From positions 2,514,501 through 2,578,500 of the forward strand of contig NC_017542.1 in the NCBI RefSeq assembly GCF_000237325.1: 64,000 bases of DNA. The letters run 5' to 3'. This stretch comes from Paenibacillus polymyxa M1. GTDB taxonomy: Bacteria; Bacillota; Bacilli; Paenibacillales; Paenibacillaceae. The position numbers and the translations under genes were made by a program. Positions 17,491 to 21,121 of this stretch are shown here, piece by piece (position 1 is the first letter of the stretch; every line of letters starts with the position of its first letter). The notes under the pieces are model-generated. The model saw only the letters and a list, made by a program, of their open reading frames with translations. It was not told the DNA's origin and did not search any database.

Positions 17491-18846
17491 TTATTTTAAA
17501 GAAGCAGGGAGCTTGACGCCAAGGAGACGGTTTCCGCTTTGAATAAATATCATCCCGCCAGATTTGAGCGTTGGACCGAAGGAGCGTGAGCCTGTGTTGA
17601 CAGTAAACACGGGCTTTAAGCTCGTCAAATCATAGCCATGAAATACGCCATCTGATTGTCCAACATAGACTCCTTTACCGAATACGTCAACTTGAACGGT
17701 CGGATTATCGCCGTCATAATGAATAAATTGACCTGAGGCCAGCTTCATGGCAGTCAGTCTGGATGTACTAAAATCTTGGTAGAACATGCGACCTTCATGA
17801 ATAGACAATAAAGGAATGAGTTGATCATAGCCATTTTGCGCCCACTTACGAGCAGGTTTGCTGTCTGGCTTGTAGTTCCAGAAATCATAGGAGGCTAGTG
17901 TCTCTCCCTGAAAGACATAAAGATCCTTGCCGTACAAAAAAGCAGAACCATATACACCTCCAGATCGGTAGACACCGTCTTTATTTTCAGGCTCGGTCCA
18001 GCGATACTGACGATCTCCTTTGGATTTACCTGTCTTGAGGTCGTACTGTGCGATCGTAACTTTATGGTTTACCGGGTCATCATCAATCATAAACGTGTTG
18101 GCTACAGAGTATACGATTCCGTCTTTAACCGCCAGTGGAAAGGAAGTTCTGAAGCTGTCCCAAAGCTTTTTGCCGGTTTTAGCATCATATGCATTGATCT
18201 GTTCAAGGGTCAGGCTGCCCTGTACATCATAGTTGCGGATGAGGACGCCATCGGTTTCCATTAGTTTGTTCAGACCATGGTACAAGTCCTTTTCCTCACT
18301 AATTTTCCATTTGAGCTTGCCGCTAGCAGCGTCAACAGCAGCAGTTTGCTCTGACTGTGTGATGTATACTGTAGAGCCTATTCGATGAATATGATCTGCC
18401 TTTGTAAATCCTAATGAAGTGGTCCATACCTTCTTGCCTGATGCTGTAACCGCATAGATAGAGCCGCTTTGTGTCATTCCGTAGATGAGGCCGTTGCTAT
18501 GAATCAAAATAGGGGTAAGTTGATCACCATATTGCCACAATTTCCGTCCTGAGCTGGCATCAAGGGCAACCAGTCTGTAGTTAGGATCAACTGCGAACAC
18601 CTTACCTTTTACTGCTACTGCCACCGCTTGCTCCGAATACTGGTCTCTATTGATGGGGATAACGGGAAGAGACCAGGTAGGCTTGATCACAGGTGCTTGG
18701 ATTACTGTGCTATACGCTCCGTTGCTCATAGACACAGCAGAATGCTCTGCACTTGCTTTTTCTGCGAATCCACCGCAGATCAGGGGCAGGCCTATACTGA
18801 CTATTGCTAATCGTGTAAACAATGCATTATGTATCGTTTTTCTCAT
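17491..18846 (-). CDS. Exported PQQ-like beta-propeller repeat protein
   Basis: The protein has 451 residues with a signal peptide (1-33, ending KASAEHS). The rest is built of repeated blades of the PQQ type, visible as LDASSGRKLWQYG, VDAASGKLKWKI, YDAKTGKKLWDS and YDLKTGKSKG. No PQQ-dehydrogenase catalytic residues were found, so it is more likely a binding or scaffold protein at the cell surface than an enzyme. GGAGCC lies about eight bases before the ATG. It is convergent with nadA and shows no functional tie to it. Confidence 0.8.
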   Translation of the reverse strand: MRKTIHNALFTRLAIVSIGLPLICGGFAEKASAEHSAVSMSNGAYSTVIQAPVIKPTWSLPVIPINRDQYSEQAVAVAVKGKVFAVDPNYRLVALDASSGRKLWQYGDQLTPILIHSNGLIYGMTQSGSIYAVTASGKKVWTTSLGFTKADHIHRIGSTVYITQSEQTAAVDAASGKLKWKISEEKDLYHGLNKLMETDGVLIRNYDVQGSLTLEQINAYDAKTGKKLWDSFRTSFPLAVKDGIVYSVANTFMIDDDPVNHKVTIAQYDLKTGKSKGDRQYRWTEPENKDGVYRSGGVYGSAFLYGKDLYVFQGETLASYDFWNYKPDSKPARKWAQNGYDQLIPLLSIHEGRMFYQDFSTSRLTAMKLASGQFIHYDGDNPTVQVDVFGKGVYVGQSDGVFHGYDLTSLKPVFTVNTGSRSFGPTLKSGGMIFIQSGNRLLGVKLPASLK

Positions 18847-18993
18847 ACGCGCTGGCTCCTTTATATAGTTAATAGGGGAGTAAGCCTTACAGAATATTAC
18901 CTTTGATTAGACTGTAAATAAAGCCAAAAGTTTTTTGTTTGTGATCCGACTTCTATCTCTAATTAAAGATTAGTCGATTGTTCGGTTTCGTGC

Positions 18994-18999
18994 TATAAT
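18994..18999 (+). promoter_or_regulatory. Extended -10 promoter for the leader ORF and yidC
   Basis: TGC-TATAAT is an extended -10 box. Transcription would start near 19006, giving a 5' leader of about 24 bases before the TTG at 19030. Confidence 0.6.
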
Positions 19000-19029
19000 T
19001 GTAGCAACATACCGAAGGAGGTGAATCCC

Positions 19030-19350
19030 TTGTTTGAGCTTCAGGACCTACTCCCTTATTTGCTTACGATCGGCTTGCTGTGCACTGTGACTTATACGTA
19101 TCTTGCTCATTTGCATGGCAGTGTAGCTGAATGCTGGGTCGAAGGCGGGCCCGTTCGCTCGCATGCTTCTCCGCTGATGCCGATATCTGCCCGCGGACAG
19201 GACATGCCTGTACGGCTAGCACGTCACATTCGGCGGAAAGAAGCGCCAGATGAAGATGCATCCGATTGCTCCCCCTTGTTGAGTGATGGCACAGTCAATC
19301 AACGAGGAGGAACATATGAAACAATTCAAGGGATTCACTTTCTGGGGTAA
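19030..19350 (+). CDS. Small membrane leader ORF overlapping yidC, MifM-like arrest-peptide candidate
   Basis: A near-perfect ribosome site (AAGGAGGTGA) ends five bases before TTG 19030, opening 106 codons that end inside yidC. The product has one hydrophobic segment (residues ~6-25, LLPYLLTIGLLCTVTYTYL), a basic stretch (RLARHIRRK, ~62-70) and an acidic patch PDEDASD (73-79). A hairpin (19274-19307) then buries the yidC ribosome site. In Bacillus subtilis, MifM (95 residues, N-terminal helix, acidic stall motif) stalls and opens such a hairpin to switch on yidC2. The architecture matches, but no sequence identity is claimed and stalling is inferred. Confidence 0.55.
   Translation: MFELQDLLPYLLTIGLLCTVTYTYLAHLHGSVAECWVEGGPVRSHASPLMPISARGQDMPVRLARHIRRKEAPDEDASDCSPLLSDGTVNQRGGTYETIQGIHFLG
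19274..19307 (+). promoter_or_regulatory. Hairpin sequestering the yidC ribosome binding site
   Basis: CCTTGTTGAGTGA (19274-19286) pairs with TCAATCAACGAGG (19295-19307) with one mismatch and one T-G wobble around an 8-base loop. The 3' arm includes the first half of the yidC ribosome site GAGGAGG (19304-19310). Confidence 0.65.
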
Positions 19351-20149
19351 ACAAGAACGGATATTGGGTTTAATCGTAGCGTTGGCGGTGGTCATGCTGC
19401 TGTCTGGTTGTGGTGCGAATGCTGCGGAGATTAATGCACAGACACCTGGTTTTTTTAATCATTACGTGGTATTCCCACTTTCTTGGCTCATTCAGCATTT
19501 GGCGCAATGGTTTGGTGGAAGCTTTGGGCTGGCGATCATGACTTTGACATTCATTGTCCGTCTGGCCTTACTGCCGCTAATGATGCGTCAAACGCGTGCC
19601 CAGCAGGGGATGAAGCGCAAGATGAGCGCTATGCAGCCCGACTTGGACCGAATTAAGAAGAAGTATGAGAATAAGAAAGACGCCAACAGTCAGCAAAGTA
19701 TGCAGCAGGAAATGATGTCACTATACAAAGAGCATCAATTCAATCCACTCAATATCGGTTGTCTGCCTATTCTCATTCAGCTACCGATTTTAAGCGGGAT
19801 GTATACTGCCATCCGACTCACGCCGGAGCTGGCGTCTCACTCCTTCTTATGGTTCCGGCTCGGACAGCCGGACTGGATTCTGGCAATTGTCGTTGCAGTT
19901 GTATACTTGGCACAGGCCAAGCTTTCTCAGCTACAGATGACGGCTGACCAGCACAAGCAATTTGCTATCATGGGTTATCTTTCACCGATTATGATGGCGG
20001 TCTTCTCCTTCAACGCTCCTGCGGCTATGCCTTTATATTGGACCGTAAGCGGCACCTTTTTGTTGCTTCAATCGTTGTGGTTCCGCAAACGCTATCCAAT
20101 TGAGGAAGCAGAGAACAAGATTAAGCTTGGTGAAGTCACGCCAACCTAA
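19316..20149 (+). CDS. yidC: Membrane protein insertase YidC/Oxa1 family (lipoprotein form)
   Basis: YidC inserts and folds membrane proteins. The 277-residue product has a lipoprotein signal with lipobox LLSGC (Cys ~26) and about five membrane helices. The conserved core is visible (GGSFGLAIMTLTFIVRLALLPL, split by the positively charged Arg of the hydrophilic groove; CLPILIQLPILSGMYTAI; APAAMPLYWTVSG). I chose ATG 19316 because GAGGAGG lies five bases upstream; a start at 19283 has no such site. It is probably the second YidC paralogue, since the first usually follows rnpA. Expression seems controlled by the upstream ORF and hairpin. Confidence 0.93.
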   Translation: MKQFKGFTFWGKQERILGLIVALAVVMLLSGCGANAAEINAQTPGFFNHYVVFPLSWLIQHLAQWFGGSFGLAIMTLTFIVRLALLPLMMRQTRAQQGMKRKMSAMQPDLDRIKKKYENKKDANSQQSMQQEMMSLYKEHQFNPLNIGCLPILIQLPILSGMYTAIRLTPELASHSFLWFRLGQPDWILAIVVAVVYLAQAKLSQLQMTADQHKQFAIMGYLSPIMMAVFSFNAPAAMPLYWTVSGTFLLLQSLWFRKRYPIEEAENKIKLGEVTPT

Positions 20150-20209
20150 TAAGAAGATGCTATTTGTTTGACATAGAATTGCGTTTGCAGTGTCTCAGGT
20201 GTAATGACA

Positions 20210-20253
20210 GGATACTATTCGAGCCTATAAGGCTTAAATAGTGTCCTTTTTTT
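20210..20253 (+). terminator. Terminator of yidC
   Basis: GGATACTATT pairs with AATAGTGTCC, with an inner GAGCC/GGCTT stem, followed by seven T. Confidence 0.85.
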
Positions 20254-20344
20254 GTAGTTTTTTTCACTATTATTTCGCTTGCGGTTTTGTAATCATTATG
20301 AAATCCTTATATTATAAATATTCTTAAAAGTTAGGAGAGACTAT

Positions 20345-21121
20345 ATGGAAAATTCAACAACAACCACTGAATGGTATGAAAATAAAATAAGAGAAGACGG
20401 CTGTTTTTGCATGAGAAGCATGCAAAAAACACCGGGATATGTACAAAAGCTGAATTGGACAGAAAAAGAATTCACTCAAGGTTTGACTTACATACAATTA
20501 AGAAAAGACAATAAACCAGTAGGATTCATTGAGTATGCATTGGGTGAACAAGCATGGAGAGCTGTTCATGCGGATGGATATCTAGTAATTCATTGCATCT
20601 GGATCGCTGTAACTGGTTTGGGGCTAGGTTCACAGCTTATTCAACGCTGCATTCAAGATGCTATTACGTTGGGGAAGAAGGGAGTGGCAGTTGTTACCAA
20701 CATAGATACCTCCTGGGCACCAGGTCCCGAGATTTTTCTGAAAAACGGATTTCGGCATGTGGAGGATGCTCCATATTCTTTTCAGTTGTATGTTTACAAG
20801 CTTAATCAAGAGCATTCAGACCCTTATTTTCCTGATAATTGGGTTTTACGTCTGGATCGTTTTAGTGAGGGCTTAACCATTTTACGAACTCATCAATGCC
20901 CTTATCTGGAAATAGCCACGCACAATGTGATTGAAGCAGCTGAGACTGTGGGGATACAACCTGAAATCATTGATATACGAGATCGTTCACAATTGATGGA
21001 ACTGTCCCCGACACCGTATGGCGTATTTCATGTGATCTGTAATGGAGAATTGATTTCATATCACAGGATGACTCCTCGTTCTTTTGCCAAAAAGCTAACC
21101 ATGCTTTATTCTAAAAGCTAA
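20345..21121 (+). CDS. yoaP: GNAT acetyltransferase with YoaP-type C-terminal domain
   Basis: The 258-residue protein starts with a GNAT acetyltransferase domain (residues ~15-150): the acetyl-CoA loop appears in the segment around GLGLGSQLIQRCIQD (~97-111), and the fold ends with FLKNGFRHVED. Residues ~165-257 match the domain at the end of B. subtilis YoaP, with a possible redox or metal Cys in RTHQCPYLE. The acyl acceptor is unknown. AGGAGAGACTAT precedes the ATG, and a terminator separates it from yidC, so it is a single-gene unit. Confidence 0.75.
   Translation: MENSTTTTEWYENKIREDGCFCMRSMQKTPGYVQKLNWTEKEFTQGLTYIQLRKDNKPVGFIEYALGEQAWRAVHADGYLVIHCIWIAVTGLGLGSQLIQRCIQDAITLGKKGVAVVTNIDTSWAPGPEIFLKNGFRHVEDAPYSFQLYVYKLNQEHSDPYFPDNWVLRLDRFSEGLTILRTHQCPYLEIATHNVIEAAETVGIQPEIIDIRDRSQLMELSPTPYGVFHVICNGELISYHRMTPRSFAKKLTMLYSKS

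Follow-up and report, generated by a model that had tools for sequence, protein, structure and literature searches.

Arrest peptides are usually hard to trace through evolution because their sequences drift. The Bacillus peptide MifM is a sensor that stalls its own ribosome, switching a second yidC on when membrane insertion fails. In B. subtilis, MifM (YqzJ, encoded upstream of yidC2/yqjG) stalls at D89-S92, and the residues R69, I70, W73, I74, M80 and N81 and the acidic run DEED are reported to be important (PMC4423224). The published MifM set (PMC10987492) contains 572 sequences from 592 Firmicutes genomes, its criteria including an N-terminal localization signal, a soluble part no shorter than 30 residues and a local charge below -0.3 (5-residue window, residues 70-100); in the available text, the arrest-critical residues are not among the family criteria. 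Further features compared here are a same-strand position directly upstream of yidC or overlapping it, homology to B. subtilis MifM and a stem-loop over the yidC2 ribosome site.

Several other systems resemble MifM in part. CliM (uC_KYxIW) of Clostridia is a YidC-monitoring upstream open reading frame (uORF) with a transmembrane helix and a stem masking yidC2 (PMC13183943); a helix and such a stem are also predicted at the locus described here. Its K-Y-x-I-W motif (PMC10987492) is missing from the translation of our uORF, and CliM membership was rejected for this reason. The ApcA and RAPP-like (RQH) arrest peptides are likewise encoded by uORFs of protein-localization genes (PMC10987492); membership in this group was also rejected, as the translation contains no motif like R-A-P-P or R-A-P-G. 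Destabilizing uORFs of the MgtQ type share acidic residues and a hidden ribosome site with our locus but differ from it in gene and signal (PMC8092293).

No literature treating MifM together with Paenibacillus was found, and the matches listed for Paenibacillus yidC2 or insertase held nothing on such a uORF. The word 'Paenibacillus' is absent from the available text of PMC7897499, PMC10987492, PMC10951233 and PMC13183943, the supplements of PMC10987492 aside. Those supplements may well contain Paenibacillus uORFs, and we therefore make no claim of first discovery. Here we describe a uORF from a 64,000-nucleotide stretch of the Paenibacillus polymyxa M1 genome (the window) that is most likely a new branch of the known MifM device rather than a new invention.

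The uORF and the selection on its peptide

The uORF and the signals around it are as follows.

18994..18999, forward strand: TATAAT, candidate -10 element of the two-gene unit, with TG at 18991-18992 as in an extended -10 (by eye)
19015..19024, forward strand: uORF ribosome-binding site AAGGAGGTGA, near-perfect, read from the sequence
19030..19350, forward strand: uORF, divergent MifM homologue by profile and gene neighbour, 106 aa, TTG start, stop codon 19348-19350
19048..19104, forward strand: N-terminal hydrophobic, predicted transmembrane helix, codons 7-25 (best 19-residue window, hydropathy only)
19210..19269, forward strand: conserved arrest core VRLARHIRRKEAPDEDASDC, codons 61-80 (family alignment and pN/pS)
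19264..19269, forward strand: Asp79-Cys80 codons, candidate P site (or P and A site) of a stalled ribosome

An earlier note on this DNA had claimed a 106-codon ORF with a near-perfect ribosome site, a single membrane helix, a basic-then-acidic stretch and an overlap with yidC. All of these were recovered, the basic-then-acidic stretch being refined to one conserved core at about residues 61-80 that closes at Cys80. Ribosome sites like AAGGAGGTGA precede most listed relatives of the uORF (by eye). The TATAAT is likely the promoter of the uORF-yidC2 unit, and a consensus promoter scan did not have it among its entries. The uORF has no match in Pfam or NCBIfam, nor, as a single query, in PDB; eight database proteins match it at 82-95% identity, except one at 50%, and the five of them that carry names are all 'hypothetical' or 'uncharacterized' proteins of Paenibacillus.

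Compared with the MifM family, the peptide has the localization signal (helix 7-25, by hydropathy) and 55 residues from there to Cys80, and its acidic run DEDASD (residues 74-79, codons 19249-19266) includes the segment DEDAS (74-78) with a charge of -3 over five residues, or -0.6 by hand count. The same-strand overlap with yidC and the stem-loop over the ribosome site are also present, as is homology, through intermediates only. The distance from helix end to core end, 55 residues in the window, has a median of 55 and a range of 48-60 among 143 distinct uORFs; the published MifM median for the helix-to-arrest distance is 54, and this distance is described as crucial for release with an N-out/C-in helix, often seen in YidC substrates (PMC10987492). 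Residues 2-9 of the window's uORF carry a charge of -2, as in 131 of the 143, and an N-out/C-in helix is therefore expected for its peptide.

MifM and the window's uORF both precede a second yidC of the same subtype, encode one N-terminal helix and place Arg, Arg and (S/A)P ahead of an acidic run. The arrest-critical residues R69, I70, W73, I74, M80, N81 and DEED were, as a set, not found in the window's peptide: R69, I70, W73, M80 and N81 align without counterpart to D58, M59, R62, K70 and E71, Leu stands at the place of I74, and the acidic run is kept. The Trp is retained in other genera of the window's family, for example HWLVRKVKRKESPDDD. Conversely, a near-invariant Cys closes the core in the window's family but is absent from B. 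subtilis MifM. The acidic run begins directly after Pro in the window and two residues later in MifM, and the window's ORF enters yidC2 by 35 nt, whereas five Bacillus loci stop 6-7 codons past the last acidic residue.

Conservation of the ORF across relatives, proposed earlier as a check, was found together with low pN/pS over codons 1-80 (0.12 and 0.15 in two clades of 15 and 40 sequences, respectively); the two other frames of the same DNA gave 1.5-3.0. Specifically, in the window's clade (15 distinct sequences) pN/pS is 0.06 for codons 1-30, 0.27 for codons 31-60 and 0.03 for codons 61-80, followed by 0.69 for codons 81-95 and 1.06 for codons 96-106, and the successive segments of the second clade (40 sequences) give 0.06, 0.25 and 0.14 (core), then 1.0 and 3.2, the first tail segment ending at codon 95 in the former clade and 97 in the latter. 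From core to tail, pN rises from 0.012 to 0.076 in the window's clade and from 0.067 to 0.178 in the second, while pS drops from 0.32 to 0.11 and from 0.52 to 0.18, so that part of the rise in pN/pS after Cys80 is due to falling pS, as RNA constraint and the overlapping gene would cause. The uORF peptide is thus under amino-acid selection up to Cys80 and hardly beyond.

A core like KRKE(A/S)PD(D/E)DxxDC occurs in 143 distinct uORFs from 12 genera, a set collected by similarity to the window's uORF and yidC2 that may favour Cys forms. Its last residue is Cys in 139 and Tyr in four of the 143 (the window's included), the pattern that located the core end having required Cys or Tyr; among distinct uORFs it missed a single one (L101). 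Counted by 80%-identity clusters, Cys closes the core in 63 of 65, and the majority residue at the following position reaches merely 17%; the Ser, Ser and Leu moderately conserved at the three positions after that are explained by the left arm of the stem, which would force them. The Cys codon is TGT or TGC (19267-19269 in the window), and in the alignment of these uORFs Arg is conserved at positions -15 and -11 relative to the end of the core. Since the ribosome can read a nascent chain no further than its P site, the end of the constraint at Cys80 suggests that a stalled ribosome would most likely hold Asp79 or Cys80 there (19264-19269).

The hairpin over the yidC2 ribosome site

Downstream of the core, the following features were identified.

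19274..19282, forward strand: left arm of the hairpin (predicted fold, covariation)
19299..19307, forward strand: right arm of the hairpin, overlapping the yidC2 Shine-Dalgarno sequence (predicted fold, covariation)
19306..19310, forward strand: yidC2 Shine-Dalgarno sequence GGAGG, 5 nt from the ATG
19316..20149, forward strand: yidC2, second YidC insertase, 277 aa, PF02096, with a lipobox-like LSGC (by eye)
20209..20254, forward strand: stem-loop and T run 3' of yidC2 (predicted fold)

The predicted hairpin 19274-19282/19299-19307 takes in most of the GGAGG. The segment 19264-19330 has a minimum free energy of -22.2 kcal/mol (z -3.9; none of 200 shuffles equals it), and a fold of 326 nt retains the hairpin, the whole of that stretch not being unusually stable (z -1.5; equalled by 11 of 100 shuffles). 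No known RNA family matched positions 18700-20400 at E 1 or better.

Relatives carry the same structure. All 143 distinct uORFs are followed by a perfect stem of 6-14 bp that starts 1-7 nt past the core codon, and its right arm overlaps the yidC2 GGAGG in 142, ending 2 nt short in the remaining one. The mean stem measures 10.2 bp, compared with 8.0 bp (sd 0.1) when arms are swapped between sequences (200 trials), the stems of 6-7 bp (7/143) being no longer than swapped arms yield. In the 98 distinct arm pairs, pairing cells make up 83%, as against 73% after shuffling (0/500 shuffles reach 83%), and 131 cells show a double change as against 37 (sd 6; 0/500 as many); the register had been fitted to the best stem, and the shuffle ignores the relatedness of the sequences. 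Double changes fall in eight columns, a count that 70 of 500 shuffles also reach and that is not decisive; most pairs within the ribosome site cannot vary on their right-hand side. Compensated arm pairs include CCTCGTTG/CAACGAGG, CCCTGTTG/CAACAGGG, CCTTGATTGG/CCAATCAAGG and TCCTCGTATGA/TCATACGAGGA. The hairpin is therefore conserved with compensatory changes, more than expected by chance, which bears out the earlier claim of a hairpin burying the yidC ribosome site.

The register between core and stem is nearly fixed, the partner of the first G of GGAGG being the sixth nucleotide after the core codon in 136/143. A stem over GGAGG starting a few nucleotides after the last acidic codon is also present in all five Bacillus mifM loci that were folded (of 21 fetched). 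Going by its general footprint, a ribosome holding Asp79 or Cys80 in the P site would extend to about 19276-19283 and thus cover much of the left arm. The proposal that a paused ribosome would lie over the left arm at 19274 finds good support in the comparative evidence. Spacing between GGAGG and the yidC2 start is 5 nt in 19 and 6 nt in 102 of 142 relatives.

Linkage to yidC2 and homology to MifM

The yidC2 product matches PF02096 at 2.9e-44, and its ATG at 19316 lies within the uORF in another frame, giving an overlap of 35 nt when the uORF stop codon is counted. The genome has two YidC genes, yidC2 and one at C1:5861894, whose products are 35% identical. The stem-loop at 20209-20254 is likely the terminator of the uORF-yidC2 unit; it was not among the entries of a terminator scan.

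In the genus sample, 73 of 75 genomes contain a yidC2-type match (E < 1e-110), the match being weaker and YidC1-like in the other two, and 72 of these 73 yidC2 genes have a uORF with the core upstream. The remaining uORF (L101, left out of the 143) breaks off: it ends at 51 aa, before the core, with yidC2 open downstream, in a draft of about 160 contigs where an assembly error is possible. Across the family sample, where searches scored a limited number of candidates per genome so that misses are possible, 111 of 245 genomes match the single uORF sequence (E 1e-3) and 145 match profile A2 (E 0.01). PF02096 matches number two or more in 152 of these genomes, one in 92 and none in one (tables read by hand). 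Strong uORF matches (36.9 bits or more, which excludes four weaker ones in G076, G079, G088 and G280) are found in 141/152 genomes with at least two YidC genes and in 0/93 with fewer. Among the eleven exceptions, G076 has a divergent uORF immediately 5' of a yidC2-type gene (282 bits with the window's YidC2), and the other ten contain no YidC above 164 bits with the window's YidC2, so that none looks like the yidC2 type. The uORF goes with yidC2, and every locus with a uORF match also has a yidC match (176/176; one locus with neither, L177 of G276, was dropped, and L002, a duplicate of L003, was skipped). This co-occurrence reflects linkage more than function, because the usual overlap makes joint loss expected.

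Eight genomes (G081, G098, G111, G147, G156, G192, G206 and G226) have a second YidC of a distant type, 26-31% identical to YidC2, and profile A2 finds no MifM-like uORF in them.

A profile built from the window's family only (A1) matched 70 of 198 genomes of the window's order and, among 398 genomes of the class, gave 12 matches beyond that family. A yidC lies downstream of the eight with E 2.7e-10 to 0.003 per genome (8/8, one in a piece); the remaining four, at E 0.0057-0.0091, are short or interrupted by stop codons and resemble chance matches. The one in a piece is L203 (G378), where a MifM-like uORF is followed by merely a 53-residue match to yidC2. In the order of one genome with such a match, G364 (presumably Bacillales), 45 of 249 genomes match A2 (E 0.01). 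The best 30 loci from that order have yidC directly downstream in 30/30, and a second set of 30 uORF loci also has yidC matches throughout (30/30, two only by a piece), the two sets sharing six genomes. Intermediate uORFs from this order, which is not the window's, read IxxWIxxxxRRKExPDDD.

A profile of 26 such intermediates (A3), compared with 177,635 PDB sequences, has B. subtilis MifM (3j9w) as its top match, at E 0.005 and over MifM residues 3-89. A1 and A3 align with an hhalign probability of 99.3%, a comparison that on its own is partly circular, A3 members having been collected with a profile containing A1 sequences. Directly against PDB, A1 finds no match, A2 nothing relevant, and a mixed profile (A4) reaches MifM only at E 0.22; the homology thus rests on intermediates. 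For each of the 35 YidCs tested from downstream of intermediates and mifM (five came from named Bacillus mifM loci, out of 21 fetched), the score with the window's YidC2 exceeds that with its YidC1. By profile and gene neighbour, the window's uORF is thus assigned, through intermediates, as a divergent homologue of MifM. The earlier note had read it as a MifM-like sensor with a different sequence and possibly of independent origin; the comparative evidence supports the MifM-like reading well, and independent origin is not supported, given the intermediate uORFs that link it to B. subtilis MifM.

The 143 uORFs and the intermediates connect MifM to a form that differs at residues needed in B. 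subtilis but has kept the RNA switch, the helix-to-core distance and the downstream gene; which parts of an arrest sequence are replaceable can now be asked directly. By sequence comparison, the sensing of YidC capacity would extend to Paenibacillus and its relatives.

One genome (G744) has two uORFs of different type, L230 and L231. The yidC2 after the L230 copy matches in a short piece only, and this copy may stem from contamination, which is listed at 5% for this genome, or be a paralogue in decay.

Proposed sensing mechanism and rival readings

We propose, with a probability of roughly 0.86, that the uORF does in Paenibacillus what mifM does in Bacillus, its nascent chain sensing YidC capacity and controlling yidC2. 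The selected peptide, the drop in selection after Cys80, the covarying hairpin, the fixed register, the link with yidC2 and the homology to MifM provide the computed support. From these we infer the stall and the codon at which it would occur, its release through YidC and the consequence for yidC2, as follows. The N-terminal helix would be inserted into the membrane by YidC, expected to be mainly YidC1. Working insertion would pull on the chain, so that the ribosome keeps going to the end of the ORF, after which the hairpin folds again and yidC2 remains off. Slow insertion would let core residues 61-80 arrest translation when Asp79 or Cys80 occupies the P site; standing over the left arm, the arrested ribosome would free the yidC2 ribosome site, and YidC2 would be made.

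Plain translational coupling, in which the hairpin is opened by every ribosome that passes along the uORF, without programmed stalling or sensing, would fit the strong uORF ribosome site and translation through the hairpin, 133 of 142 uORFs extending past the yidC start. Yet coupling needs no particular peptide, while codons 1-80 are strongly selected with a fall after Cys80, and the core-to-stem register is identical in 136/143; we regard this reading as improbable. Still less probable is abortive translation, whereby the APDEDxxD run would make ribosomes leave (intrinsic ribosome destabilization) and so change access to the yidC2 site, possibly under the influence of Mg2+. Such destabilization by acidic runs has been reported, as in the Salmonella uORF mgtQ (PMC9718836, PMC8092293), but a departing ribosome would not keep the stem open, and the conserved helix, its narrow distance to the core, the basic half of the core (Arg -15 and -11) and the homology to MifM would be left unexplained. 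The least probable of the alternatives considered is that the uORF product is a small membrane protein serving a function of its own alongside YidC2, overlap and hairpin being incidental. Operons commonly contain conserved small membrane proteins, and the named relatives (5/8) are annotated only as 'hypothetical' or 'uncharacterized'; against this stand the widely varying ORF ends, the hardly selected sequence after Cys80, the covarying stem and the 0/93 strong uORF matches in genomes with fewer than two YidC genes (of 245).

Within the sensor reading, the chemistry of the stall at the catalytic centre may have changed in the window's family. A near-invariant acidic-x-x-(Asp)-Cys end could replace W73, M80 and DEED, resulting in a single-site stall that requires Cys in the P or A site, as opposed to the multi-site stall of B. 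subtilis MifM, and, with the ORF extending past the yidC2 start, ribosomes escaping the stall could sweep over that start and block it as a second layer of control. We put this forward tentatively, and on balance think it rather unlikely.

The ends of the ORF vary among relatives. The 133 uORFs that pass the yidC2 start do so by 31-200 nt, and nine of the 142 with a located start (L123 has none) end 21-36 nt short of it. In another fourteen loci, mostly of genus g13 (L200, L201, L204, L206, L207, L225, L227-L230, L232-L234 and L236), the uORF has 82-90 aa, stopping a few codons behind the acidic run, and lacks the Cys. What matters is thus the core and the stem, not the ORF end. By eye, the short g13-type uORFs often end in SPH, with the stop codon near the hairpin, as in Bacillus mifM. 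CTG was taken as the start in 14 of the 143 rows, mostly with an in-frame TTG or ATG just upstream (by eye); in L134, L147 and L156 it stands immediately after the ribosome site and may be the real start.
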